NCBI RefSeq assembly: GCF_000754815.1
Contig: NZ_KN150747.1
Coordinates: 219,647 to 283,646 of the forward strand
From: Yersinia ruckeri ATCC 29473
Lineage (GTDB): Bacteria; Pseudomonadota; Gammaproteobacteria; Enterobacterales; Enterobacteriaceae
DNA length: 64,000 nt
Reading direction: 5' to 3'
Of the stretch, positions 464-22,499 are shown piece by piece (position 1 is the first letter of the stretch; each line of letters opens with the position of its first letter). The translations under genes and the position numbers were made by a program. The notes below the pieces were generated by a model, which was given only the letters and a program-made list of their open reading frames with translations, was not told the DNA's origin and did no database searches.

Positions 464-2995
464 ATGTATAAAACTGATATTTTATGTAATTTAATGGGGT
501 TACCTATGGTATATCAGGATCCGTTGCCAAAACTTATCGTAAAAAAATCAACGCTATTAAACGAGAATCAGGGATTTGTAATCCCACTTTTGGAAGAAAT
601 TGAACCAGATGTTTTTAAACCTATAAGTAAGCAGGATTATCCAAGCGATATACTGATTACAAAGGGTTTTCCAAGTGTTGACGAACGTTTTGGAGTAACT
701 GATTTATTCGTATTAGCTGCCCACTCTTACGATGAGACGAAAAGTATAAAGGATGGAAAATCACGATACTGGGCAATGGGCTCTGATGCAGAAAATCTTG
801 CTCAGAATACGCTATTACCAGTATTAGAAATTAGTCTGCCGGATAAGCAAAATGGAATGTTGCCGCAGGATGTTATTCCGTTAAAACAACCATTTTTTAT
901 TCTTGATGGTACGGATTTATATGGCCCACTAACTAGTACTCAAAATGATGACAAACGTTATATAATTGAACCTCATGTCCACTCATTGCTAAGTTATGGA
1001 AAAGGTTTTTTAGGATGCTTCAAAGTTAGTGATTTAGAAAAAGCACTTGTTACAGTTATAGAAAACAATGTTGAAACATTATATGTATCGTCTTTCAAGA
1101 CTATTTCAAAATATAAATCAAAAAGTATTGACTATCTTTCTGACGATCAATTAATTAAAGTTGTTAATGCTCAAGGTTTTGGCAAAAAAGCACAGCCTTT
1201 AGGAAAAAAAGAAGCCCAACGTCTCCAACAAATAATTGCTGAAAGTGAGAAAACCAATCAGATTTTTAAACAATATGAAAGAGTTGAACGATTAAAGAAT
1301 TTACTAGATCGGTACTTGTCAGAGTCTGATATTGGTTATTCCTTGATAAAGGAATATTTAAACACGAATGCTGGAATGCGTTTTTTAGAAACGTATATCG
1401 AAGATAATAAGTCTTCACTCTTGCAAGAACATTTGGAAAAAGTAAGAGATGATGTTGAACAAGAGGAAAGTCGAATTCGTTCCAGCCTGAGTCGTCTTGA
1501 AGAGACATTAGTTAGTAAAGAAAATCAGCTACATGAATATGAACAAAAAGTTGAAAGTAAGAAGCGTGAAGTCGAAAATAAAATCGCTGAATTTGAAGCT
1601 GAAAAAGAAGATGCTATAAAGAAAAAATTAGAAGAAAAACAATTAAAACTTTCAACTGAAATTGACAAAGCTAAAGAGAATCTATCCCAAATAAATATAG
1701 ATATAGAAAAAAGAGCAAATTTACTTAATATCGCTAATGAGGCTGTGCAATTAAATAAAAGAAAAGACTATCTTGAAGAACATAATATGCTTCTCAAGTC
1801 TACTGCTGATGGATATCAAGATGTCTTAAGAACTACAAACAATCAAGATCTTGCTAAAAAAATTGGTGAGATGGAAGCCATCAATAAAGTATTAAATGGT
1901 CAGTCCTATCTTGATACGACAATGTTTGATGCTAAGCCTGTTGTATTTACTAGTGATGAACCTGAGCGAGTCGAAGATCTGATTGATTGCTTATGCTCCA
2001 AATTTTCCGAGGATGGTGGTAGAGATTTCTCTCAAGAGGAAATGACCAATCTTATAGTTTCAATTAATCAATCTTTCCTTACAGTTCTTAGTGGCCCCCC
2101 TGGGACTGGGAAAACATCAACTGCTACGAGACTTGCTGAGTCCCTGCATCTAGGGAGCCCCGCAGGCGATAAGAATTTTTTGTTTGTGCCTGTCGGGCGC
2201 GGTTGGGTATCAAGCCGGGATATTCTAGGCTTTTATAACTCTCTGAAGGGTGTTTACCAAGAATCACGTACAGGGTTATATGGTTTTTTACAGCATAAGA
2301 GTAATGGTGCTCAAAAATTAATACTTCTAGATGAAGCAAATTTATCATCAATGGAACATTATTGGTCTGATTTTATAGGGCTATGTGATGCTGAATATTG
2401 CTCAAGGGCGATAGATACAGGAATACCAAAAGATGATCTAAGATTCATCAATATTGATAATTCCGTTAGGTTTATTGCAACTATAAATAATGATTCAACA
2501 ACTGAACGATTATCTCCTAGGCTAATTGATAGGGCTCCTATAATAAACTTAGATATTTCTAATGATATGGCGCACAATTTTGCTGGAAAAAAATTGGAAG
2601 GGACAATAAGAATCGAGACTTTGAATAAACTATTATCCCCTCGAGAAGACATTGAATTATCAAAAGCAAATGACTTAATATTAAATCGTATTATTGAACA
2701 TTTATCAAAAAGAGACTCAAAATTAGGGAATTCAGTTCATATTAGTAAACGAAAAGTTAATGCCATTACGAACTACTGTTCCGTTGTTAGCCCTATTTTA
2801 GATAATGAAATTGCGATGGATTTCTCGATTGAACAACATATATTACCTCATATAGAGGGTTATGGTCAGGGCTTCAAAAATCGGTTAGGAGAACTCTCGG
2901 ATATTCTTGGACGTTCTTACCCTAGGTCATCCGCACAATTAGAACGAATTATTACTACTGGAAATGAGTTTACGAGCTCTTTCTCATACTTTTAA
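464..2995 (+). CDS. McrB-like AAA+ ATPase with long coiled coil (restriction-type motor)
   Basis: An 843-residue protein, much longer than E. coli McrB. Residues about 325-470 are Glu/Lys-rich heptads, a predicted coiled coil. The AAA+ core follows: Walker A GPPGTGKT at residues 544-551, Walker B LILLDEAN with D623-E624, and a sensor region near 670-690 reading ATINNDSTTERLSP and ending LIDRA. In McrB the equivalent segment carries the MNTADR-type GTPase signature; here it is of the NxD-TT kind, so nucleotide preference (GTP or ATP) is open. The N-terminal 300 residues may be the target sensor, but I recognise no domain there. It lies 15 bases upstream of the nuclease gene, clearly one operon. 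The start is uncertain: ATG 464 has a weak ribosome site, while ATG 506 is preceded by GGGG at good spacing. Function as a Type IV-like anti-phage motor is inferred. Confidence 0.8.
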   Translation: MYKTDILCNLMGLPMVYQDPLPKLIVKKSTLLNENQGFVIPLLEEIEPDVFKPISKQDYPSDILITKGFPSVDERFGVTDLFVLAAHSYDETKSIKDGKSRYWAMGSDAENLAQNTLLPVLEISLPDKQNGMLPQDVIPLKQPFFILDGTDLYGPLTSTQNDDKRYIIEPHVHSLLSYGKGFLGCFKVSDLEKALVTVIENNVETLYVSSFKTISKYKSKSIDYLSDDQLIKVVNAQGFGKKAQPLGKKEAQRLQQIIAESEKTNQIFKQYERVERLKNLLDRYLSESDIGYSLIKEYLNTNAGMRFLETYIEDNKSSLLQEHLEKVRDDVEQEESRIRSSLSRLEETLVSKENQLHEYEQKVESKKREVENKIAEFEAEKEDAIKKKLEEKQLKLSTEIDKAKENLSQINIDIEKRANLLNIANEAVQLNKRKDYLEEHNMLLKSTADGYQDVLRTTNNQDLAKKIGEMEAINKVLNGQSYLDTTMFDAKPVVFTSDEPERVEDLIDCLCSKFSEDGGRDFSQEEMTNLIVSINQSFLTVLSGPPGTGKTSTATRLAESLHLGSPAGDKNFLFVPVGRGWVSSRDILGFYNSLKGVYQESRTGLYGFLQHKSNGAQKLILLDEANLSSMEHYWSDFIGLCDAEYCSRAIDTGIPKDDLRFINIDNSVRFIATINNDSTTERLSPRLIDRAPIINLDISNDMAHNFAGKKLEGTIRIETLNKLLSPREDIELSKANDLILNRIIEHLSKRDSKLGNSVHISKRKVNAITNYCSVVSPILDNEIAMDFSIEQHILPHIEGYGQGFKNRLGELSDILGRSYPRSSAQLERIITTGNEFTSSFSYF

Positions 2996-3010
2996 GTTCG
3001 GGATGCGAAC

Positions 3011-4849
3011 ATGCAACTTGATATTATAATACTTTCAGGTGATCGTAGTGGGTTAGTAATAAATTTGGGTGAGCTGAGTTCACACAGTTCCATTACTTCA
3101 TGGGTAAAGGAAAATGAAGCATTAGAGTTGCGCTTAGAAGTTATAGGTTCGTATTCAGAAGCTGAAATAGTGTTATATGACCACCAGATAATAGCAACGG
3201 AAATCCTCGAAGATGAAGGGCGTACTGTTTTTGTTTGGAAGCCTAAACGTAGGTGGGGTGAACAGTATGAGTACTTATTCTTTAATTATTTTGGCATTGC
3301 AGAGTTTACGGTAAAACTTTTTAGCCATTCTTTCATTGATCCTGATTTCATCAACTTCCAACCTATAGAGGTACTTGCATCTAAAGCTAATGCTAAAAAT
3401 GTAGAATATATGTTATCTTATTTGGCAAAATTAAATGATGATGAACTCCATTCTATTTTCCAAACTACAAAATATAACTCGGGCTTTAAGGATGGAGTAA
3501 ACTCCCCTCGAAGTAATTTAGAACGATTGGAATATGCATTTCAACTTGTTTGTACTTTATTACCAGAAATTTTGAAAAAACCCATAACTAAACTTTTACC
3601 TATTCAGAAGATAATTAGCCCTAATGACTATAATGTTTTTGATGATTCATCATTAGGTTGGCTAATGTCAAACCTCTCTGTATTAGATGAGTGCGATGAT
3701 ATAAATCAATCTCATTTAATATATGGCACTAGAATGTATAGAGCATCTTCTCTTCAAGTATCTGAACTTGAGGAAAATACCGATGTTTATGAAAACTGGG
3801 TCGTTCATGGTTTCTTAGACCTTTTGATTGTTGAAATTTCCAATCAAATTTCCTCATACGATAATATTTTTCCTCAATCATCTAAATTATCAATCCCAAA
3901 ACCAGATGGATACTCTTCATTTTTTGATCAAATTAACAAATTCAGAAAGAGTTTATTAAATGGTCAGATAACAAGATGTGAGAAGTTAGCTAGTTCAGCA
4001 ACAAAGTTAAAATTTCATTTAGATAATTATCTTCCTGTTAGTCAAGTATTGAAACAAAGGCCTATCCTTACTCCAAAGGCGGCGGCAAATACAGCTTATC
4101 GTTCAATTTTTATTAATTTCATCAATTGGTTTGAAAAAAGCTCTCCTGATTGGTCAGTTTATGAAAATCTATTTGCGATAAAAAGTATTCCTATTTTATT
4201 TGAATCATACTCTTTTTATAGAGTAGCAGAGACGCTATCTGGTATTTTTGATGGTAAACAGAAAATAGGTAATTACTGGGAGGATAGTGTTGGAAATGAA
4301 ATAACATTGTTCCGTGAGCCTATTTACTGGATGAATAAGAATCGGAATATAGCAGATTCGATTTTTATTAACACTGAAGGCCTTTCTTCCACGAAAACAG
4401 GTATTAGAAAGCGAGACTATTCACATAGATACGCTCATCGAAGTCCAGATATTGTTATTGAGATTAAATTACCCAATGGTTTTCGAAAGCTACTTATTTT
4501 AGATGCTAAATATACTAGCGCTAAATTGGCTGTAGATAAACACTTGCCTGAATGTACAATGAAATATGTTCATGGAATACACTTGAAAGGGAGTGGGGCA
4601 ACGGTTGTTGATGCATTTACTATATTATATCCAGATGTGCAGGGTAATTTATATAGCTTTCATTCTTTTGAACATGATGTGTTTAGCGATAATCCAGTTA
4701 CCCCATCATTGCAATGTGTTGGGCTGGAGTTAAGTGAGTCAGAACATCAAGATAATTTATTTAAAGTTATAAACGCTACTCTATTAAATGCACTACGTCA
4801 TAGTTATAATAGTGAAGATATAAATAAATTAGAAAAAAAAGTAAATTAA
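3011..4849 (+). CDS. DUF2357 / PD-(D/E)XK nuclease, McrC-like partner
   Basis: A 612-residue protein. The N-terminal half resembles DUF2357 proteins (beta-rich start, then a stretch near residue 258 reading YENWVVHGFLD). The C-terminal part has a PD-(D/E)XK nuclease signature: PDIVIEIK with D480 and E484, then LLILDAKY with D498 and K500. Known two-gene systems couple such a nuclease to an McrB-like AAA+ motor, which is exactly the upstream neighbour, 15 bases away. By analogy with McrBC the motor would recruit and drive this subunit to cut modified or otherwise marked DNA; the substrate cannot be read from sequence. Both genes are intact and AT-rich compared with the core, consistent with transfer. 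Confidence 0.8.
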   Translation: MQLDIIILSGDRSGLVINLGELSSHSSITSWVKENEALELRLEVIGSYSEAEIVLYDHQIIATEILEDEGRTVFVWKPKRRWGEQYEYLFFNYFGIAEFTVKLFSHSFIDPDFINFQPIEVLASKANAKNVEYMLSYLAKLNDDELHSIFQTTKYNSGFKDGVNSPRSNLERLEYAFQLVCTLLPEILKKPITKLLPIQKIISPNDYNVFDDSSLGWLMSNLSVLDECDDINQSHLIYGTRMYRASSLQVSELEENTDVYENWVVHGFLDLLIVEISNQISSYDNIFPQSSKLSIPKPDGYSSFFDQINKFRKSLLNGQITRCEKLASSATKLKFHLDNYLPVSQVLKQRPILTPKAAANTAYRSIFINFINWFEKSSPDWSVYENLFAIKSIPILFESYSFYRVAETLSGIFDGKQKIGNYWEDSVGNEITLFREPIYWMNKNRNIADSIFINTEGLSSTKTGIRKRDYSHRYAHRSPDIVIEIKLPNGFRKLLILDAKYTSAKLAVDKHLPECTMKYVHGIHLKGSGATVVDAFTILYPDVQGNLYSFHSFEHDVFSDNPVTPSLQCVGLELSESEHQDNLFKVINATLLNALRHSYNSEDINKLEKKVN

Positions 4850-5278: not shown

Positions 5279-6646
5279 ATGAGTGGTGGAGATGGTAAAG
5301 GCCATAACAGCGGAGCCCATAGTACAGGTGGAGTAAATGGTGGCCCGACTGGCCTTGGTGGAGGAGGAAGTCATGGAGGCGGAGTCGGTTCGGGTGAGGG
5401 GGCGTTTAAAGTGGCCTCACAGCGGTCAGAAGGCGGTTGGCTAAACAGCTATAACGCTGCAGGTCAGTTGATAGGTTCGACACGCCAATCAGGCAATGGC
5501 AGTGGTAATAGCGGTAACGGTGGCGGGTCTGCTAATAATGACGCGGAAAAGGCTAGACTGGCGGCCGAAGAGGCTAAACGTCAGGCCGAAGAGGCAGAGA
5601 TAAAACGAAAAGCGGCGGAAGATGCGGCTAAGTGGGATGCGGCCCATCCCGTAGAAGTGGCAGAACGGCAGGTGAATGAAGCTCAGCAACGTATGGATCA
5701 GGCCCTGCAGGATAAATCATCCGCAGAACAGCGAGCCGCGAACCATGATGCTGTTGCTAATGGTCTCCAGAATGAAGTCTCACCACTGCTAAAAGAAGCT
5801 CAGGAGTTCAGGGATAAATTCGCGAATCTCGCTAAAGGGGGGGCATTAGACCCTTCAATCCCCGCGCTTTATCATATGGCGCTGACTATGAATGCGGAAG
5901 CATCGCGTAAGAAGCAAGCCGCTGATCAGAAGCAAGCAAGTGCTAACAGCGAGCGCGCGGCTGCGGTTCAGTCCCGAAACGAAGCCAATGCAGCGAGTCA
6001 GCGTTTAGAACAAATGCGGCAGGAGAAAATCAAAGCGGAAGCTCACCTGAATGCGGTTCGTCAAAAAGTAGCAGAGGATAAAAAAGCTCAAGAAGAAAAT
6101 GACGCGGTGAAAGATGCGGTTAAATTTACTGCGGATTTTTATCAGACAGTGACAGAAAAGTATGGTGTTCAGTCGGCTAAAATAGCACAGGAATTGGCCG
6201 AGGCGGCTAAAGGAAAGCAGCTCCGTAGTGTTGATGAAGCATTAAAGGCTTTTGATAATTATAAGGATGTACTGAATAAAAAATTTAGCGTGAAAGACCG
6301 AGAGGCGATAGCGAAGGCGCTGGAATCGATTGACCGAGACCTGATGGCAAAGAATTTGGCCAAGTTCAGTAAGGCGTTTGGATTAGTAGGTAAGGCCATT
6401 GATGGAGTAGATGTTGTAAAAGAAATTAATAACGGTATGGAAACGGGAAATTGGAGACCTTTACTCGTTAAGCTAGAAACGTTGGCTGCTGGGAGAGGGG
6501 CAGCTTCGTTAGTTGCATTTACTTTTGGAGTCATGACTGCATCTCCATTAGGAATTTTAGGTTTTGGTTTGCTAATGGTCATTACCAGCACATTAATTAA
6601 TGATGCGTTAATTGAAAAGATAAATAAATACGTGTTTGACTTATAA
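5279..6646 (+). CDS. Pore-forming colicin (E-type N-terminus, E1-like channel)
   Basis: A 455-residue colicin. The ATG at 5279 is chosen because GAAGAGG lies 8 bases upstream and the protein then begins MSGGDGKGHNSGAHS, like E-group colicins. Residues 1-85 are a glycine-rich translocation segment, far shorter than in E2/E9. Residues about 90-285 form an alanine-rich coiled coil including KWDAAHPVEVAERQ, resembling the BtuB-binding domain of E2/E9-type colicins. From about 285 onward (AVKFTADFYQTVTEKYG, FDNYKDVLNKKFS, ending with a hydrophobic hairpin at 411-440) it matches colicin E1-type channel domains. It would depolarise the inner membrane of sensitive relatives. The receptor is inferred from resemblance only. 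The gene is SOS-regulated and convergent with its immunity gene. No lysis gene was found. Confidence 0.92.
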   Translation: MSGGDGKGHNSGAHSTGGVNGGPTGLGGGGSHGGGVGSGEGAFKVASQRSEGGWLNSYNAAGQLIGSTRQSGNGSGNSGNGGGSANNDAEKARLAAEEAKRQAEEAEIKRKAAEDAAKWDAAHPVEVAERQVNEAQQRMDQALQDKSSAEQRAANHDAVANGLQNEVSPLLKEAQEFRDKFANLAKGGALDPSIPALYHMALTMNAEASRKKQAADQKQASANSERAAAVQSRNEANAASQRLEQMRQEKIKAEAHLNAVRQKVAEDKKAQEENDAVKDAVKFTADFYQTVTEKYGVQSAKIAQELAEAAKGKQLRSVDEALKAFDNYKDVLNKKFSVKDREAIAKALESIDRDLMAKNLAKFSKAFGLVGKAIDGVDVVKEINNGMETGNWRPLLVKLETLAAGRGAASLVAFTFGVMTASPLGILGFGLLMVITSTLINDALIEKINKYVFDL

Positions 6647-6662: not shown

Positions 6663-6690
6663 GCCCTATCGACTGATAGGGCTTTTTTTT
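6663..6690 (+). terminator. Colicin gene terminator
   Basis: Perfect 8-bp stem GCCCTATC/GATAGGGC with loop GACT, followed by eight T. The stop codon of the convergent immunity gene lies inside this hairpin. Confidence 0.9.
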
Positions 6691-7004
6691 ATACTTAAAA
6701 AAATAATACATAAAACTCCAAGTGGAATAGAAAATATAAAGCAAAATATATAATAAATGGCGTAAAGCCCATTCTTACCTATATCTTCGCTAAAAATTCC
6801 TTTATGCCAAAATTCTTTTTTAGTATAAATAAGAGCTATTATTTCGATTAGTTTTTTTGAAAAAGGGTATAGTAATGTACTTATAATTAATATGGACCAA
6901 GCTAAAATTAAATTATTTTCTAGCCAAGTGTTACTTTGCCATAAAAAAACGCACAGAAAAAAAACACCCCAGCCGACATTATTTATATAGTATTTCTTAT
7001 CCAT
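6666..7004 (-). CDS. Colicin E1-type immunity protein
   Basis: A 112-residue hydrophobic protein with three likely membrane segments (about 10-28, 32-50 and 82-105). It aligns with the colicin E1 immunity protein along its whole length: YYINNVGWG, YPFSKKLIEIIAL, a KKEF motif and IPLGVL...IKK near the C-terminus. It would sit in the inner membrane and block this colicin's channel domain. Its position, convergent with the colicin and starting beyond the shared terminator, is the standard layout for pore-forming colicins and allows constitutive expression. Its E1 resemblance independently supports the E1-type assignment of the channel domain. Confidence 0.88.
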   Translation of the reverse strand: MDKKYYINNVGWGVFFLCVFLWQSNTWLENNLILAWSILIISTLLYPFSKKLIEIIALIYTKKEFWHKGIFSEDIGKNGLYAIYYIFCFIFSIPLGVLCIIFLSIKKSPISR

Positions 7005-7759: not shown

Positions 7760-8016
7760 ATGTGTAAAATCCGATTCACCGAGCACCAGATCATCGCCGT
7801 TCTGAAGTCTGTCGAAGCCAGACGCACCGGTGCCGCGAGGCCGCTATTTCCGAAGCCAGCTATTACAATTGGAAGGCGAAATATGGCGGGATGGAAGCCG
7901 CTGATATCAAAAAGATCAAAGATCTTGAAGACGAAAATCGTCGTCTGAAGCAGATGTTTGCCGAACTGAGTTTGGAATGCCGGACTCTGAAAGACATCAT
8001 CAAAAAAAAGCTTTAA
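7760..8016 (+). pseudogene. IS3-family OrfA, frameshifted
   Basis: It begins with the expected MCKIRFTEHQIIAVLK, but a small deletion/frameshift near 7825-7850 breaks the frame. In the next frame the usual OrfA C-terminus resumes: [31 protein letters not shown] and KDIIKKKL. The run of eight A before G (8002-8010) is the likely -1 programmed frameshift site used in IS3 elements to make OrfAB. With a broken OrfA, autonomous transposition is unlikely. Confidence 0.8.
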
Positions 8017-8861
8017 AACCAGCGATAAAGCGTGAGCTTGTCAACTATTTGACCGCGCAGTTTACGATGAGCATACGCCAGGCATGCAGGGCGTTATCGC
8101 TCAGCAGGACGGTGTTTTGTTACCAACTGGATACGCGACGTGATGAACCGGTGAGCCAGGTGCTGACCGAGGCGGCCGAGCGCTATCCTCGTTACGGCTT
8201 TAAGAAGCTTTTTCAGGTAATTCGCAGGCAGGGGCACGTCTGGAACCACAAGCGTATACACCGGATTTACTGTCTGTTGAAACTGAATTTTTGTCGTAAG
8301 GGTAAACAACGCCTGCCGGTGCCCAATCCGGCTCCGCTGGCAACGCCGGAAGCACTTAACCAAAGTTGGTCCATCGATTTTATGCCCGACGCATTGACAT
8401 GTGGTCGACGTTTTAGGACTTTCAACGTCGTGGATGATTTAACCAGCGAGGCGCTGGCTATCGACATTGACCTGAATATCCCTGCTCAGCGGGTCGTCCG
8501 GGTGCTGGACAGGATAGTAGCAAACCGTGGATATTCGCTGAAGATGCGGATGGATAATGGGCCGGAACTGATATCACTGACTTTGGCGCAATGGGCTGAA
8601 GAGCATGGTGTAGTGCTGGAATTTATCAAGCCAGGTAAGCCAACACAAAACGCGTTTATCGAACGATTTAACCGAACGTACCGGACAGAAATACTGGATT
8701 TTTATCTGTTCAGAACACTGAATGAAGTACGGGAAATCACGGAGCGCTGGCTGAATGAATACAACAGTGAGCGTCCCCATAAATCCCTGAATAACCTGAC
8801 ACCGGAAGAATACCGGCTAATGGCTGAGAAACCGGAAATCTCAAAAAGTGTGTGGAACTAA
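7977..8861 (+). CDS. IS3-family transposase OrfB (DDE integrase core)
   Basis: Encodes a complete IS407-type OrfB of about 290 residues with the DDE triad in SWSIDFM, RMDNGPE and NAFIERFNRTYR, and the C-terminal ERPHKSLNNLTPEEY motif. Normally produced as an OrfAB fusion by -1 frameshifting; the shown start is simply the open frame and translation from it alone is not expected. It lies within the IS at 7682-8877. Confidence 0.88.
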   Translation: MPDSERHHQKKALKPAIKRELVNYLTAQFTMSIRQACRALSLSRTVFCYQLDTRRDEPVSQVLTEAAERYPRYGFKKLFQVIRRQGHVWNHKRIHRIYCLLKLNFCRKGKQRLPVPNPAPLATPEALNQSWSIDFMPDALTCGRRFRTFNVVDDLTSEALAIDIDLNIPAQRVVRVLDRIVANRGYSLKMRMDNGPELISLTLAQWAEEHGVVLEFIKPGKPTQNAFIERFNRTYRTEILDFYLFRTLNEVREITERWLNEYNSERPHKSLNNLTPEEYRLMAEKPEISKSVWN

Positions 8862-9252
8862 AGTTGGGATACTTACATTTTCTTCTGGCTTGCCGGTGTT
8901 GAGTGTGGTCGGCGCTGCCGTGTTGGCGCCATTGTCACTATCTCAGGTTAATCGTGGTGTCGAATTGCCTTGTGAAAGAAGCGTAATGCAGCTGCCGCGC
9001 CCTGTTTGGCGGTCAGTGAGAAGTCGACGTTTTGACCCGCAGTATCTGTAAGTACTGGATATCGGAATGCTGGAGGAGCCGCTTGTGAAGCCATTTTTAC
9101 GATAATGGATAACAGTCAATTAGGGATATTCTTGTAAACAATAGGAAATAGCAATACTGCCAAAGTAAGAGATTTTTACTATCAAAATGAATAAGCCTAA
9201 TATTAAACTAACAAGCGGACTTTAGTTTCAGGGGATAACTAAATGAGAATAC

Positions 9253-10278
9253 TCAATAGTCTAGGGTGCTAACTCCAAGATCATTAGCCAATGGAATCAG
9301 CATCTTTCTGTCTAACGGCCAGTTATCTAACAGCTTATTTTTCTTGTATTTAAGCATCCAATAAATAAGTAAAATAGTGCTTTGTTTATAGAGAGCGCCA
9401 TCAGTATATTTGGACTTAATAATTTCTGGGATAACTTTATTCTTTCTCACAAATATCTCAATCTTTCCAATTAATTCTGAATCTATTAAATCTTCAAATT
9501 CATCCAGAATAGTCAGAATTGATTTCTGAGTCTCGGCTTTTATTCCTGTAAAACTGTAATACAAAGCATCAAGTTTGGAAATGATACCTAGTTCTTCTAT
9601 TGCACCTTGATTAAGCTCTTGACTTACCTGAGTAAAAAAATCATCAGTTGTTTCTATAAGGGCCATACACTTAGCAACAGTCCTGTGAACTTTTGGTTTT
9701 ATCGCTGTTTTAGCCTTATAAATAGCATCATGAGTTAACTCAGCATGTGCATGCTGAAGTAACGTTCTAATTTGAACTTCGCAGGGGATATCAATTGGGA
9801 TATCAACAGAATTAAAGGTTATTGCATGTTTAGGCCGCAAGACAAAATGAACTGATTGATAAGTAAATAATAACGGAGCATTTTCTTTGTCTATATTAAA
9901 ATGTTTACAGGCATCGAATGACCAAAATTCAGACGATTTTATGATATCACATATAAGCTCAATATCTTCAATGACAAGTACTACAAACCGTGCACCTACT
10001 TTATCCTCAATCTCATTGTATGGGTCAGCGTAATGCTTACCAGCGCGATAAAATGCTTTGTCGATTAGTGACTTTTCATCTTTTAACCGATGTTTGGCAG
10101 GCAATTTGAGAAAGGTATCTAGATCCTTACCTCTCTCCTTTATAGAAGAAGTAATTTCTTGAACAATAAATTGGCCCCAAGATTTATAGACAGACTCTTC
10201 TTGGAGCCATTTTGCTTGAAATTCAGCTTCGGTCATTCCTGCGTCACTATTTTGTCCTTGATAATCACTTGTGTCCAC
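9253..10278 (-). CDS. RelA/SpoT-type nucleotide synthetase domain protein (toxSAS candidate)
   Basis: 341 residues from GTG 10278, or 327 from ATG 10236, which overlaps the upstream stop as ATGA; neither has a well-spaced ribosome site. Synthetase-domain signatures are in order: HRLKDEKSLIDK (R64, K66, S70, K74, nucleotide contacts), DKVGARFV (D92, R97), YQSVHFVL (140-147, G-loop tyrosine) and EVQIRTLLQHAHAELTHD (167-184). No HD hydrolase, TGS or ACT domain is visible; the C-terminal 150 residues are helical and unassigned. Families of stand-alone synthetases include alarmone makers and toxSAS toxins that make ppApp or pyrophosphorylate tRNA. The second-gene position after an NdpA-like gene suggests a paired function. 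Role in defence or toxin-antitoxin is inference. Confidence 0.8.
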   Translation of the reverse strand: MDTSDYQGQNSDAGMTEAEFQAKWLQEESVYKSWGQFIVQEITSSIKERGKDLDTFLKLPAKHRLKDEKSLIDKAFYRAGKHYADPYNEIEDKVGARFVVLVIEDIELICDIIKSSEFWSFDACKHFNIDKENAPLLFTYQSVHFVLRPKHAITFNSVDIPIDIPCEVQIRTLLQHAHAELTHDAIYKAKTAIKPKVHRTVAKCMALIETTDDFFTQVSQELNQGAIEELGIISKLDALYYSFTGIKAETQKSILTILDEFEDLIDSELIGKIEIFVRKNKVIPEIIKSKYTDGALYKQSTILLIYWMLKYKKNKLLDNWPLDRKMLIPLANDLGVSTLDY

Positions 10279-11330
10279 TCCGCCGCCACCCCTGATTCAT
10301 CTTTGTCTCCATCTATTGTTGTCATGGTTATCAACTCCTTGAAGGACTCTGACGGTGCGGAGATTTTAACATTCTTACTGAAGCTAACTTTTCTGAACTT
10401 CAGACTACCTGAAATGTGTTCAATATCTTTAGTAAAAGAAGCTGTCGGAATGCCAGCGTTTTCCATATATTCAGAAAAAGCATCCTGAACATCTGATTCA
10501 AAATATGTTGCACCAAAATCCGCAGTGCCAATAGAAGATGAGGTGTCTACCTTGAGATAAGTTGTTAGGGCATTAATATAATCACTCTTCTTGGATTCAG
10601 GTACATCTAGTTCGGCAATGAACTTCTTAGTTTCATCATAAAATTGTTTAGTAGTTCTCGCACTCGTTTGGGGATATCCGCAACCGAGGAAGTCAGCATA
10701 AAAATATTTAGCAGCAGCTTTTCCTCCTGTTTTACTTATCTGAGAATCAGATACCATCACAACCCATTTGTCATTTAAGTTGCTATAGGGTGAATCATAG
10801 ACATCCTTTTCAAAAAAACCCGCTGTTTTATATAGCCTGGAGCTAGGTGTTAAGAGTACTTCTTCAACATACTTCAATGATATTTCACCCGTTTTGTCAT
10901 CAACTTCTTTTTCATAGGCACTGTGTGTTTCTGCTTTGATAATTCCTAAGAAATTTTTGGCTGGATGACCTTGGGTACCAGTAAATACAACTACAATTCC
11001 ACCCGGTATTGTTCTGATTTGCTGGGCATCTGAAAGTGATGTGGCAAAGTCGTAAGATGACACTGCGAAAGTATCATCAGCTTCCTCTACAGCTCTTTCA
11101 ACAATCAGAGGAAGATCCTTAGCTTCTTTTTGATTGGTAATTTCCATTTGTACTGCCCGCGAGCTTGACCCCAGAGCCTCAATAACTCTTTGTTTGAAAG
11201 TTTCCATTGCCTCATAAGAAAAACGGGTAAAATCTCGGCTTTGCATTGGTTTTTTTTTCTGGCCTTCAGCGTCTCTTTGGTAGACCTGATGGATGATGAT
11301 ACGGTCAATATTTAAATTTAATAACTGCAT
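10233..11330 (-). CDS. NdpA/YejK-like nucleoid-associated protein
   Basis: A 365-residue protein similar in outline to the 37-kDa nucleoid-associated family (YejK, NdpA; PF04245). The start LLNLNIDRIIIHQVYQRD matches the family's opening strand, and YFYADFLGCGY followed by TTKQFYDETKKFI matches its central FFMDFLG region; the C-terminus KFRKVSFSKNVKIS fits the last beta unit. It is encoded first in an operon with the RelA/SpoT-like gene, ending inside or next to that gene's start (4 or 46 bp overlap), so the two are translationally coupled. E. coli YejK binds the nucleoid; phage and island homologues are of unknown role. It could sense DNA state or hold the synthetase inactive. Confidence 0.72.
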   Translation of the reverse strand: MQLLNLNIDRIIIHQVYQRDAEGQKKKPMQSRDFTRFSYEAMETFKQRVIEALGSSSRAVQMEITNQKEAKDLPLIVERAVEEADDTFAVSSYDFATSLSDAQQIRTIPGGIVVVFTGTQGHPAKNFLGIIKAETHSAYEKEVDDKTGEISLKYVEEVLLTPSSRLYKTAGFFEKDVYDSPYSNLNDKWVVMVSDSQISKTGGKAAAKYFYADFLGCGYPQTSARTTKQFYDETKKFIAELDVPESKKSDYINALTTYLKVDTSSSIGTADFGATYFESDVQDAFSEYMENAGIPTASFTKDIEHISGSLKFRKVSFSKNVKISAPSESFKELITMTTIDGDKDESGVAAEWTQVIIKDKIVTQE

Positions 11331-11709
11331 CTCATTACCTTGTAATAATTTTTTATCCTGAATTCCAATAGGGAATAGATTAGGATAATTTAACCCTGTT
11401 TACTACATATACCATTGCCTTTTGATATGGGGTATAGATATTTTTCTACGTATATCTATGAGTGGGGGTGCTAGAAACAAAGCGAAATTGTATACGTTTC
11501 GTTAAACCAGTTGTGATTATTCATCAAGGTGGCCGTCAGCAACATAATGGCCACTACGTCTAATTTATGACTGAAAAATCGCAACCCGCAACCATGTTGG
11601 ACACGGTGCTTTAAAGATTTTTGGTTCTGCCATGTGACTTTTCCAGCGTGTTAGCTCTGTTTATAAGAATATTGTATCAAATTACAGGAATCAATTTACC
11701 CAGTTAACA
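11331..11709. other. Intergenic stretch upstream of the NdpA-like operon
   Basis: About 380 bases with no supportable gene. It must contain the promoter for the leftward NdpA-RelA operon. A short inverted repeat built on GTGGCCGTC/GGCCAC lies near 11530-11555. Nothing else was recognised. Confidence 0.4.
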
Positions 11710-11765
11710 GACAAACTTTATTGTCTGATTTGCCCATAAGGGACAAACATTATTGTTCTTACACA
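11710..11765. repeat. Tn7-like end (outer element, TnsB-type sites)
   Basis: Two sites of the type GACAAACTTTATTGTC (11710-11725) and GGACAAACATTATTGTT (about 11741-11757), then CTTACACA ending at 11765. The layout equals the distal end at 23110-23166. It faces the left side, so it is the end of a different, adjacent Tn7-like element whose body would lie leftward. Confidence 0.75.
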
Positions 11766-11769
11766 AACT

Positions 11770-11851
11770 TGTGCAGAGACAATAAAGTTTGCCCGTAAGC
11801 AATAAAGTTTGCCCGTAAGCGCATTTTTATACAACAAAGTTTGCCCGCATG
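11770..11851. repeat. Tn7-like left end with three TnsB-type sites
   Basis: Three copies of the core ACAATAAAGTTTGCCCGTAAG: at 11778-11799, 11799-11819 and, slightly diverged, 11831-11851. The first two abut; the third is spaced by 11 bases. They precede tnsA by about 50 bases, so they probably also overlap the tns promoter and could allow TnsB self-control. Confidence 0.82.
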
Positions 11852-11899
11852 TTTTTCATAGACTAAATTTTAATCATGTGAAATGTTTGTGGAAACCTT

Positions 11900-12343
11900 A
11901 TGGGAAAAGGACGAAAGCTTGAAACTCTCGGGGACTATCAGCGGGCACTAAAAGACAAATATGGGATTGGCGCTGGCGTTGAGTACAAACCTTGGTTAAG
12001 AGTTCAGGATGTAAAATCTCAAGGAGTCCGCTCTCAAGTTTTCGGCAGAAAGGTTCCGAGGGTGCACCATTTTCTATCCTCATTAGAAACACAATTCTTT
12101 TACTTGGCCGAATTTACTGATGATGTTATAGACATACGAGAGCAGTTTCCCCTTCTCCCACTGAATGTATCTCAAAAAATAGCTAAAACAATTGGTGTCG
12201 AACATCCAACTCACCCCAATACTGGCGAGCCAATAATTGTCACCACTGATTTTCTTCTCACTTTGCAAACTGTTCACGGCGAGAGATACCAAGCTGTTTC
12301 GGTCAAGCCTGAAAGCGAATTTAATAACCAGCGTTCGCTTTGA
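11900..12343 (+). pseudogene. tnsA: TnsA endonuclease, N-terminal catalytic part only
   Basis: 147 residues against about 270 in Tn7 TnsA. The catalytic triad is visible and nearly at Tn7 numbering: E63 in SSLETQFFYLAEF, D117 in VTTDFLL and K136 in YQAVSVKP. After about residue 140 the homology stops and the frame ends. The C-terminal domain that binds TnsC is lost. TnsA cuts the 5' ends of the element during cut-and-paste transposition. The following gene fragment is TnsD-like, so a deletion of several kilobases removed the rest of tnsA, tnsB, tnsC and the N-terminal part of tnsD. Confidence 0.85.
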
Positions 12344-12345
12344 CC

Positions 12346-13076
12346 TGCTCCCAGTTTCTATTCCTCTAACATTAATTCAGAGAGATGTGACGCTCGAACA
12401 ACGTTGTTGTGATTTGTTATATCGGGGTATTTCTATGGAAAATGTTGGGTTGCATATTGGCAAAAGTAGATGTTATGTGAAAACAGTAGCGCTCAAGTAT
12501 AATATCCCAGTCAAACTTAAGCCAAAAAAAATCACAGAAAACATTAAACTCCATGTGATTCAACTGGCTAGAAAAGGTTTTCATCGAAAAGAAATTGCAC
12601 GTCGATTTAATATATCAAAAGGTAGCGTTGAGATAATCATTTCGACAACAAGTGGGCTTGTCGATTTTCGAAAAAAATGTAAATTTGAATCTAAGCGACG
12701 TTCCTATAAATGCCAAATAATTCGATTCATTCAAAATAATCCATATGCATGCAGGCAAGATATTAAAAGATCTTGTAGTAATGCATTCTTTTGGTTATAT
12801 CAGCGCTGTCCATCGTGGCTTGAGTGCCATTTACCTGCTGCCAATAAGCCAAAATGTGTGATTCGTGTGGATTGGGCTATAAGGGATAAAATTCTATCGA
12901 AAGAAGTCGCTTTTATTATAGAGGAACAAGGAGGTACAATTACACGTACTCAACTTGATAGAATTCTTGGGGGGCATGGCTGGTTAACAAAAAATAAAAA
13001 AAGACTACCATTAACGCTAGATGTTTTTAGTCGTTTAACTAAGGAAATAGATAAAGTAAATATACTTTCGGAGTAA
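12346..13076 (+). pseudogene. TnsD-like target selector, C-terminal part
   Basis: The open frame encodes a C-terminal TnsD-like region: repeated HTH-like units (CCDLLYRGISMENVGLHIG, QLARKGFHRKEIARRFNIS), then SNAFFWLYQRCPSWLE, IRVDWAIRDKILSKEV and RTQLDRILGGHGWL, the pattern of the TnsD C-terminal DNA-binding domain. The zinc-containing TniQ N-terminal half is absent. The upstream junction is with truncated tnsA in another frame; I see no initiation signal belonging to this fragment. In Tn7, TnsD binds the attachment site. Confidence 0.72.
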
Positions 13077-20738: not shown

Positions 20739-22499
20739 ATGAAGAGTGACTCTACATATTTAGGCAAGGTTATTCGTGTTGACTCCAGTACTGTAGAGGT
20801 AGAGGTTTCATCAGAAATACCTTCCGCAGCTCCGATAATTAACGGTCGCCTGTATAAAATAGGCCAGATCGGCACATTTGTAAAAATGCCAATGGGAAAT
20901 ATTACTATCTACGCTATCGTTGCTGCGGTAAGTGACAGACCATTTGCAGAAAACAGTGATGACGAATATAGAATCAGCTCGAAATTCCTTTCAGTTCAGC
21001 TTATTGGTGAAAAAATAGGTGACAGTGAGTTTGAAAAAGGTGTGGGAACTTACCCTACAATAGGCGATGAGGTACACCTTGTAATTGAACACGATTTATT
21101 TGAAATTTATGGCGAAAAAGATGCCGGTTCCATTGAGGTTGGGAAACATTCTTCTTCTGAAAACTTAGGCGTTTATGTAGATACACATAATTTGATTCTA
21201 CGCCATTGTGGAATTTTAGGCTCAACAGGAAGCGGGAAATCTAATACTACCGTAAGTATTTTGAAATCTATTTTACATGGCTATATTGGCTCAAGGATTA
21301 TACTGGTAGATCCCCATGGGGAATATGCATCTGCATTTCCTGATGCCAAAGTACTTAGAATTAATGAAGTAGAATCCCCATTGGTAATACCATTTTGGCT
21401 TATGACATTTGAAGAGCTTGCCTATTTTCTTGTAGGTGCTGATTACCGTGATGAACAAAGAATAGAATATCGTTTACTGAGAGATCTTGTAACAAAACTT
21501 AAGAAAGAAAATCTAAATTTAAAATCTGGGATTGTTAATGAAAATCTTATTACAGCGGACTCACCCATTCCATTTAGTGCTAGGCGGCTATGGTATGAGA
21601 TGAATTGGTTACTTAATGCATCATTTTCTTCTGCAAAGAAAGATGAACAAACTAGAGATACAGCAAATGAACTGGTTGCTGGGGATGCAGAAAAATTGAC
21701 TCCGGCAACCTTTGAAGCATATGCAATGGGCAACATAGCCCCATATAAATCTCAACACGCAGAGTATTTTTCTTACGAAAAGAAATTACTTTCTCGACTC
21801 AGAGATACCCGATACGATTTTCTGTTCAATCCAGGTGATTACAAAACAGCAGATTCTAAAAAAGATTTGCATGATTTACTAACTGATTGGATCGGCTGTG
21901 AACAGCGATTAACAATACTAGATCTTAGCGGCGTACCATTTGAGGTGTTAGATATAACCATAGGCTTAATTACAAGATTTGTTTACGACAGCATGTTCTG
22001 GGGACGTAAAGAGTCATATACTGGTAAGCAAAGACCATTGCTCTTAGCATTCGAGGAAGCTCATACGTATCTAGGGAAAAATGATAAGAGTAATTATTCG
22101 AAAGCTGCTGTTGAAAAAATCTTTAAAGAGGGTAGAAAGTTTGGCGTAGGGGCGCTGGTAATTTCTCAACGCCCCTCAGAGCTGTCAGAGACTATACTTT
22201 CCCAAATTGGTACACTGATAGCTCTTAGGCTTACCAATTCAAGCGATCAATCTATAGTAAAATCATCAGCGCCTGATAATCTAAACAGTCTTATGGATCT
22301 TCTTGCATCTTTGCGTATAGGTGAAGCCGTTATCTCTGGTGAAGCTATAAAAATCCCATCACGAGTTCGGTTAAAATTGAACCACCCGAGACCAACCAGT
22401 GAAGATCCAAAATTAATTGAATGTTGGACAAAAATATTCCCTCAAGATGCAGATAATTATAAAGTCGTTGTAACTAAAATACGTGAGCAAAAAATATAA
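20739..22499 (+). CDS. HerA-type hexameric ATPase (SIR2-HerA defence partner)
   Basis: 586 residues. Residues 1-110 form a beta-rich HAS-barrel-like domain. The motor follows: Walker A GSTGSGKS at 161-168, then ILVDPHGEYASAFP, Walker B LLLAFEEAH (E439-E440), and VISQRPSELSETILSQIGT with the conserved QRP and the arginine-rich end typical of HerA/FtsK-fold ATPases. The long insertion at about 215-400 is usual in defence HerA proteins. The gene overlaps the SIR2 stop by 11 bases, so translation was coupled; with the IS in SIR2, its expression is likely reduced unless an internal promoter serves it. Reading frame is intact. Confidence 0.9.
   Translation: MKSDSTYLGKVIRVDSSTVEVEVSSEIPSAAPIINGRLYKIGQIGTFVKMPMGNITIYAIVAAVSDRPFAENSDDEYRISSKFLSVQLIGEKIGDSEFEKGVGTYPTIGDEVHLVIEHDLFEIYGEKDAGSIEVGKHSSSENLGVYVDTHNLILRHCGILGSTGSGKSNTTVSILKSILHGYIGSRIILVDPHGEYASAFPDAKVLRINEVESPLVIPFWLMTFEELAYFLVGADYRDEQRIEYRLLRDLVTKLKKENLNLKSGIVNENLITADSPIPFSARRLWYEMNWLLNASFSSAKKDEQTRDTANELVAGDAEKLTPATFEAYAMGNIAPYKSQHAEYFSYEKKLLSRLRDTRYDFLFNPGDYKTADSKKDLHDLLTDWIGCEQRLTILDLSGVPFEVLDITIGLITRFVYDSMFWGRKESYTGKQRPLLLAFEEAHTYLGKNDKSNYSKAAVEKIFKEGRKFGVGALVISQRPSELSETILSQIGTLIALRLTNSSDQSIVKSSAPDNLNSLMDLLASLRIGEAVISGEAIKIPSRVRLKLNHPRPTSEDPKLIECWTKIFPQDADNYKVVVTKIREQKI

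Follow-up and report, generated by a model that had tools for sequence, protein, structure and literature searches.

The 64,000-nucleotide stretch of the Yersinia ruckeri ATCC 29473 genome analyzed here (the window) carries two overlapping genes, of which the upstream one (gene A) encodes a protein of the NA37/YejK family and the downstream one (gene B) a stand-alone RelA/SpoT synthetase. The same pair recurs in the same order in a wide range of hosts, and we are almost certain that the two genes constitute a single functional unit. That this unit serves in defense or addiction is probable, and the account that on balance we favor is of a mobile two-gene abortive-infection or toxin-antitoxin module in which A restrains B. 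The first-pass annotation, which had proposed a candidate defense or toxin-antitoxin pair at this place, is thus partly supported.

Both genes lie on the minus strand and are intact. Gene A (10233-11330; 365 residues) is the first of the pair and matches Pfam NA37 (PF04245) with an E value of 1.7e-11, and gene B (9253-10236; 327 residues) matches RelA_SpoT (PF04607) at 1.6e-12, each above its curated cut-off; the stop codon of A and the start codon of B share the sequence ATGA at 10233-10236, also on the minus strand. The coupled arrangement of an NdpA-like gene and a synthetase gene is therefore as first described, except that B had been started at the GTG at 10278, whereas the ATG at 10236 is the most likely start because it overlaps the stop of A and because relatives align from there. 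Elsewhere in the Y. ruckeri genome there are two further RelA/SpoT matches, in open frames of 747 and 707 residues, and one further NA37 match, of the YejK type, which scores 375 bits against only 44 for gene A, so the window pair is a diverged addition to the housekeeping genes of these families. The G+C contents of A (0.393) and B (0.347) are both under the window value of 0.447.

At the loci retrieved the two genes are almost always together. A scan of genome contigs with B gave 19 loci, and every one has an A homologue immediately upstream in the same orientation (cut by the contig end in L008). When viral contigs were scanned with a B profile, 59 loci were retrieved; A precedes B in 57 of them, and the remaining two, L094 and L109, have a B frame that starts at the contig end. 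The reverse scan, of viral contigs by the A profile, retrieved 61 loci, 59 of them with B beside A (58 with B adjacent and one, L166, with B in pieces); in L130 and L164 the contig edge is reached. These counts overlap, since both viral scans match largely the same contigs, L166 is the L108 contig, and L051 is apparently the L009 contig. Among the 57 viral pairs both genes are in pieces in L108, and in L061, L073 and L074 gene A is NA37-like only in its C-terminal part. The order and coupling of A and B are kept from Gammaproteobacteria to a Streptomyces plasmid, and the co-occurrence that the first-pass annotation had offered as a check on its proposal is borne out.

Sampling by taxonomic rank shows how sparsely the pair is spread. 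The B profile matches three of 25 genomes in a genus sample (full-length in two), 17 of 369 in a class sample (full-length in three) and 54 of 299 in a phylum sample (full-length in G000, G557 and G599, all with A beside B); the A profile matches the same three of the 369 class-sample genomes, with A beside the full-length B. At the weaker B matches A was found within about 1.5 kb in none of 22 loci, seven from the phylum sample and 15 from the others. In Escherichia coli, six of 5,426 complete genomes match by blastn, with the pair present in the four regions inspected and both products named in the genome listings of the remaining two; querying with divergent prophage pairs, in two further searches, brought no new pair-bearing genome among the matches listed, and in the second, of the 20 genomes listed out of 32 matched, 18 show an end match covering 3% of the query. 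Among 72,556 plasmid records the B protein matches nine, with four of these matches spanning most of the protein, and the A protein matches five, including the Streptomyces plasmid, in which the next gene encodes a RelA_SpoT protein. A chromosome-sized Neisseria gonorrhoeae record among the plasmids (L026, 6949-8995) has an intact A followed by a B split into two overlapping frames.

At loci other than that of the window the start codon nearest the stop of A overlaps it by four bases in 31 of 62 pairs and by one base in 20, although choosing the nearest start biases these counts toward such overlaps. Distances in the A and B trees are correlated (r 0.94 for 65 pairs, a value reached in none of 999 permutations), and the nearest neighbor is the same in both trees for 39 of the 65. 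That the two proteins are produced and act jointly is strongly supported by these genomic comparisons.

The pair is also mobile and patchily distributed. Blastn similarity to five hosts (L001, L002, L004, L005 and L006) covers approximately 9260-11354 on the minus strand, with edges that vary from 9246-9266 at one end to 11330-11357 at the other; this confinement to the gene pair and no more than 27 bases upstream of it matches what would be expected of a mobile cassette. The two-gene pair of L001, from Denitrificimonas caeni, is 83-85% identical. Locations of the pair are islands at tRNA-Thr or next to guaA, one prophage, and plasmids, one of them conjugative; the prophage, in E. coli (L725), carries P2-type genes.

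Within gene B the synthetase core spans residues 49-176 (9709-10092, minus strand), as delimited by Pfam. The protein has no second Pfam match at E values up to 1, and hence none to a hydrolase (HD) domain, in agreement with the original description of a synthetase with catalytic signatures and no hydrolase. Removal of short or broken genes and near-copies reduced the B sequences from the 78 loci of both B scans to 61. In an alignment of 60 of these with that of the window (the Yersinia thracica near-copy being excluded), residues R50, K52, K60, D78, G81, R83, Y126, S128, H130, E153, Q155 and R157 are invariant in all 61. B thus has the features of a small alarmone synthetase, with the domain and its catalytic residues present and the hydrolase domain absent. 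The modeled fold resembles RelQ/RelP (YjbM, YwaC), from which B differs in a longer loop before the YQS motif, in about 115 additional C-terminal residues, and in having an NA37 partner at every locus where the contig lets a partner be seen. The C-terminal part (residues 211-327; 9256-9606, minus strand) is helical in the structure model and has no Pfam match at E values up to 1. Neither the residues nor the predicted fold points to an inactive synthetase, a finding that would have told against the original proposal, and B is very likely an active enzyme. A match in the pair itself to the PADLOC candidate model PDC-S33 (E 3.6e-7) spans residues 20-165 only. At one locus (L076, 8996-9571) a 191-residue protein without clear family and with two hydrophobic stretches is encoded directly 3′ of B, and is perhaps a further membrane partner.

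For gene A, NA37 is the sole family recognized by Pfam at E values up to 1, and YejK is the best structural match of its predicted fold. Although it shares the Pfam match and the predicted fold with YejK/NdpA, A differs in being low-scoring, mobile and paired. According to a statement quoted in PMC10561277, YejK binds DNA and topoisomerase IV; that paper also places an NdpA/YejK gene in an integrated element, and NdpA/YejK is reported from two Pseudomonas phages in PMC10305613. Among nine surveyed regions that hold extra or divergent NA37 genes, taken from the genus, family and order of the window, four have a different gene tightly coupled to NA37. In L199 (1776-4137), L200 (262-2500) and L202 (2963-5316) the partner is a protein of about 400 residues with one or two C-terminal hydrophobic stretches; these three partners are mutually related (E values down to 8e-20) and make this arrangement a candidate for a second NA37 two-gene system. 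In L204 (1073-4132) the NA37 gene is followed by genes for proteins of 306 residues, with a weak match to PADLOC Unk_02 (E 0.001), and 379 residues. None of these five partner proteins matches a Pfam family at E values up to 0.05. As for the other regions, L203 holds a further set of the synthetase pair with a SLATT-like gene (see below), the NA37 gene of L201 is truncated by the contig end with an AbiEii gene nearby, and no comparable coupled partner is seen 3′ of the NA37 gene in L205-L207. Because the coupled partners of NA37 genes differ, A is favored as the part that senses and controls. Two chimeric forms of A stand 5′ of intact synthetase genes: in L061 (7330-8004) NinB is fused to the NA37 C-terminal part, and in L073 (3194-4036) a stretch with a weak Pol-beta palm match is joined to it.

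A SLATT-like gene adjoins the pair in 13 of the 65 tree rows, lying upstream in eleven related rows and in L086, which has a different SLATT, and downstream in L087. The three-gene form is present, for example, in E. coli SCU-102 (L020), which came from a healthy student. The distribution of the SLATT-like gene on the tree requires at least four changes (three if only well-supported branches are counted), compared with a mean of 12.1 when labels are shuffled. Six of the 13 SLATT-like genes were scanned against Pfam and PADLOC; for all six products there are matches to the '2TM Effector' models of PADLOC, with E values between 5.9e-11 and 3.5e-3. In Pfam, those of L021 and L087 exceed a cut-off (DUF4231), and the remaining four have SLATT or DUF4231 matches below the cut-off. 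We take the '2TM Effector' models to represent effectors of the cyclic oligonucleotide-based antiphage signaling system (CBASS). SLATT is elsewhere predicted to be a nucleotide-responsive pore former (PMC7159879). The clade that contains the window pair (18 rows, none with SLATT) is nested within a 29-row clade having SLATT in other branches, with support of 82-87 at the relevant forks, and SLATT was therefore likely lost in the lineage of the window.

A plausible scheme can be assembled from the families and the gene order. A probably keeps B in check, and probably reads a signal of infection, for instance a phage protein, or DNA that is foreign or disturbed; we judge this sensing and restraining role of A somewhat better than an even bet, and the evidence fits A as inhibitor, sensor or target of B. 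Once released, B would transfer pyrophosphate to a nucleotide or to the 3′ end of a tRNA, and its activity would halt growth before phage is made. In part of the family the SLATT-like protein, with two transmembrane segments, would act as a third, dispensable component, which suggests that B, in some cases at least, makes a small nucleotide whose targets include a membrane effector, and we lean toward a free nucleotide rather than a modified tRNA as the product; the version in the window, which lacks SLATT, would act through the synthetase alone. More tentatively, mobile NA37 proteins could constitute an unrecognized class of infection-sensing regulators with interchangeable effectors (the alarmone synthetase, the protein of about 400 residues with C-terminal hydrophobic segments, or the 306- and 379-residue pair), in which the RelA/SpoT enzyme, when accompanied by SLATT, would be a second-messenger synthase for a membrane effector, resembling CBASS but based on alarmones rather than cyclic nucleotides.

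Other explanations differ considerably in their merits. Chance proximity of A and B, for which nothing speaks except the single window, is ruled out by the order kept in divergent hosts and by the agreement of the trees, and its probability is negligible. A plain type II toxin-antitoxin pair, in which A is merely the antitoxin of B and retains a mobile element without sensing phage, would accommodate the regulator-first order with its mostly 4- or 1-base overlaps, the stand-alone synthetase, the carriage on plasmids, islands and prophages, and the N. gonorrhoeae locus where A is intact and B in two pieces. We nonetheless think it unlikely: the antitoxins described for toxic small alarmone synthetases (toxSAS) are pZFD, Tis1-like or PanA domains (PMC11782079), and the family recognized in A is NA37; the SLATT-like third gene recurs; and B is intact in L061, L073 and L074 though A is reduced to its C-terminal part. 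Addiction and defense roles can, moreover, coincide. It is rather doubtful, though a little less so, that B is a tRNA-pyrophosphorylating toxSAS like CapRel or FaRel2 that blocks translation and makes no messenger; from the toxSAS (FaRel2, CapRel, PhRel and FaRel) and Tas1 it differs in its extra C-terminal helical part as well as in the recognized family of its partner. A pair that improves the fitness of a prophage or plasmid (a moron) by tuning the growth or DNA topology of its host, without acting against other phages, would agree with the 59 relatives on viral contigs, the E. coli prophage pair, and the binding of DNA and topoisomerase IV described for YejK, but integrative islands and a conjugative plasmid carry the pair too, PsyrTA is its neighbor in L017, and the other NA37 partners and the SLATT-like genes resemble conflict systems; we consider this explanation improbable.

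Several observations also weigh against the abortive-infection or toxin-antitoxin module that we favor. By tblastn the A protein of the window has no match in 50,697 phage records, and B has only three partial matches there. The window pair is itself without a SLATT-like gene, with no open reading frame of at least 80 residues at 8862-9252 or 11331-11899, and SLATT genes also accompany reverse-transcriptase defense systems (RTasSLATT models were matched), so that SLATT is no proof of a nucleotide messenger. Frequent defense genes beside the pair are not shown: of 10 chosen flank proteins only the two PsyrTA proteins of L017 match PADLOC at E 1e-30, and only one of the 25 families listed from a scan of 128 flank proteins has more than one member. 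The literature consulted yielded no toxicity, binding, product or phage data on the pair.

A survey of titles and abstract openings found no description of an NA37-RelA/SpoT pair, in line with the first-pass statement that no such system is described, with two cautions. The DefensePredictor study (PMC13092281) validated 42 E. coli units, one of which protected E. coli MG1655 against phage and has a YejK nucleoid-associated domain new to validated defense; its partner and accession are not named in the sections consulted, the shared feature is the YejK domain, and the terms ppGpp, SpoT, alarmone and RelA (as a word) are absent from the main text. 'Alarmone-based immune systems' are mentioned in the consulted part of PMC7824862, which cites Burroughs et al. 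2015, where an earlier prediction of such a system may lie. The toxSAS antitoxins in the consulted part of PMC11559606 are likewise of other kinds than NA37. CBASS with 2TM (SLATT) effectors shares a nucleotide-making enzyme and the SLATT-like gene, but the enzyme of the pair is RelA/SpoT rather than a cGAS/DncV-like nucleotidyltransferase (CD-NTase), for which no model is among the Pfam and PADLOC matches of A and B, and the SLATT-like gene is optional. With Kiwa, an insensitive comparison against KwaB gave no profile-level similarity, and KwaA was not looked for. If our favored account is correct, a nucleoid-type protein would be a new kind of control in synthetase-based immunity, the little-understood NA37/YejK family would gain a testable role, and alarmone synthetases would be linked to SLATT membrane effectors. 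With two genes, invariant catalytic residues, natural forms with and without SLATT, and other NA37 partners, the sensor and effector roles are directly testable with a few clones.

The pair lies between mobile elements, as had been noted. On one side it adjoins an integrase-core transposase gene (7977-8858, plus strand; Pfam rve_3, E 1.4e-26) that reads as IS3-type, and on the other are a TnsA-N fragment (11900-12343, plus strand; Tn7_TnsA-like_N, E 5.8e-9) and, overlapping it, a TnsD-like open reading frame (12237-13076, plus strand; TnsD, E 1.3e-19), which together appear from their matches to be a Tn7-like remnant (11900-13076). RelA-SpoT toxins are mentioned among Tn7-like cargo in PMC8649781. 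A HerA gene lies farther along, at 20739-22496; the scan bearing on the earlier description of an adjacent defense-rich Tn7-like element covered 10 proteins. A SLATT-NA37-synthetase set lies near PsyrTA in L017.

The window also holds a pore-forming colicin gene at 5279-6643 (E 8.1e-65 to Pfam Colicin) and, in the opposite orientation at 6669-7004, an immunity gene of the colicin E1 type. At 464-4849 are genes for an 843-residue AAA ATPase and a 612-residue protein with a sub-threshold PD-(D/E)XK match, which may be a restriction pair like McrBC. The A-B pair of Y. thracica (L003) lies about 600 bases from the AAA-ATPase and weak PD-(D/E)XK genes that in the window are at 464-4849, and the intervening block with the colicin and immunity genes is absent at that place.
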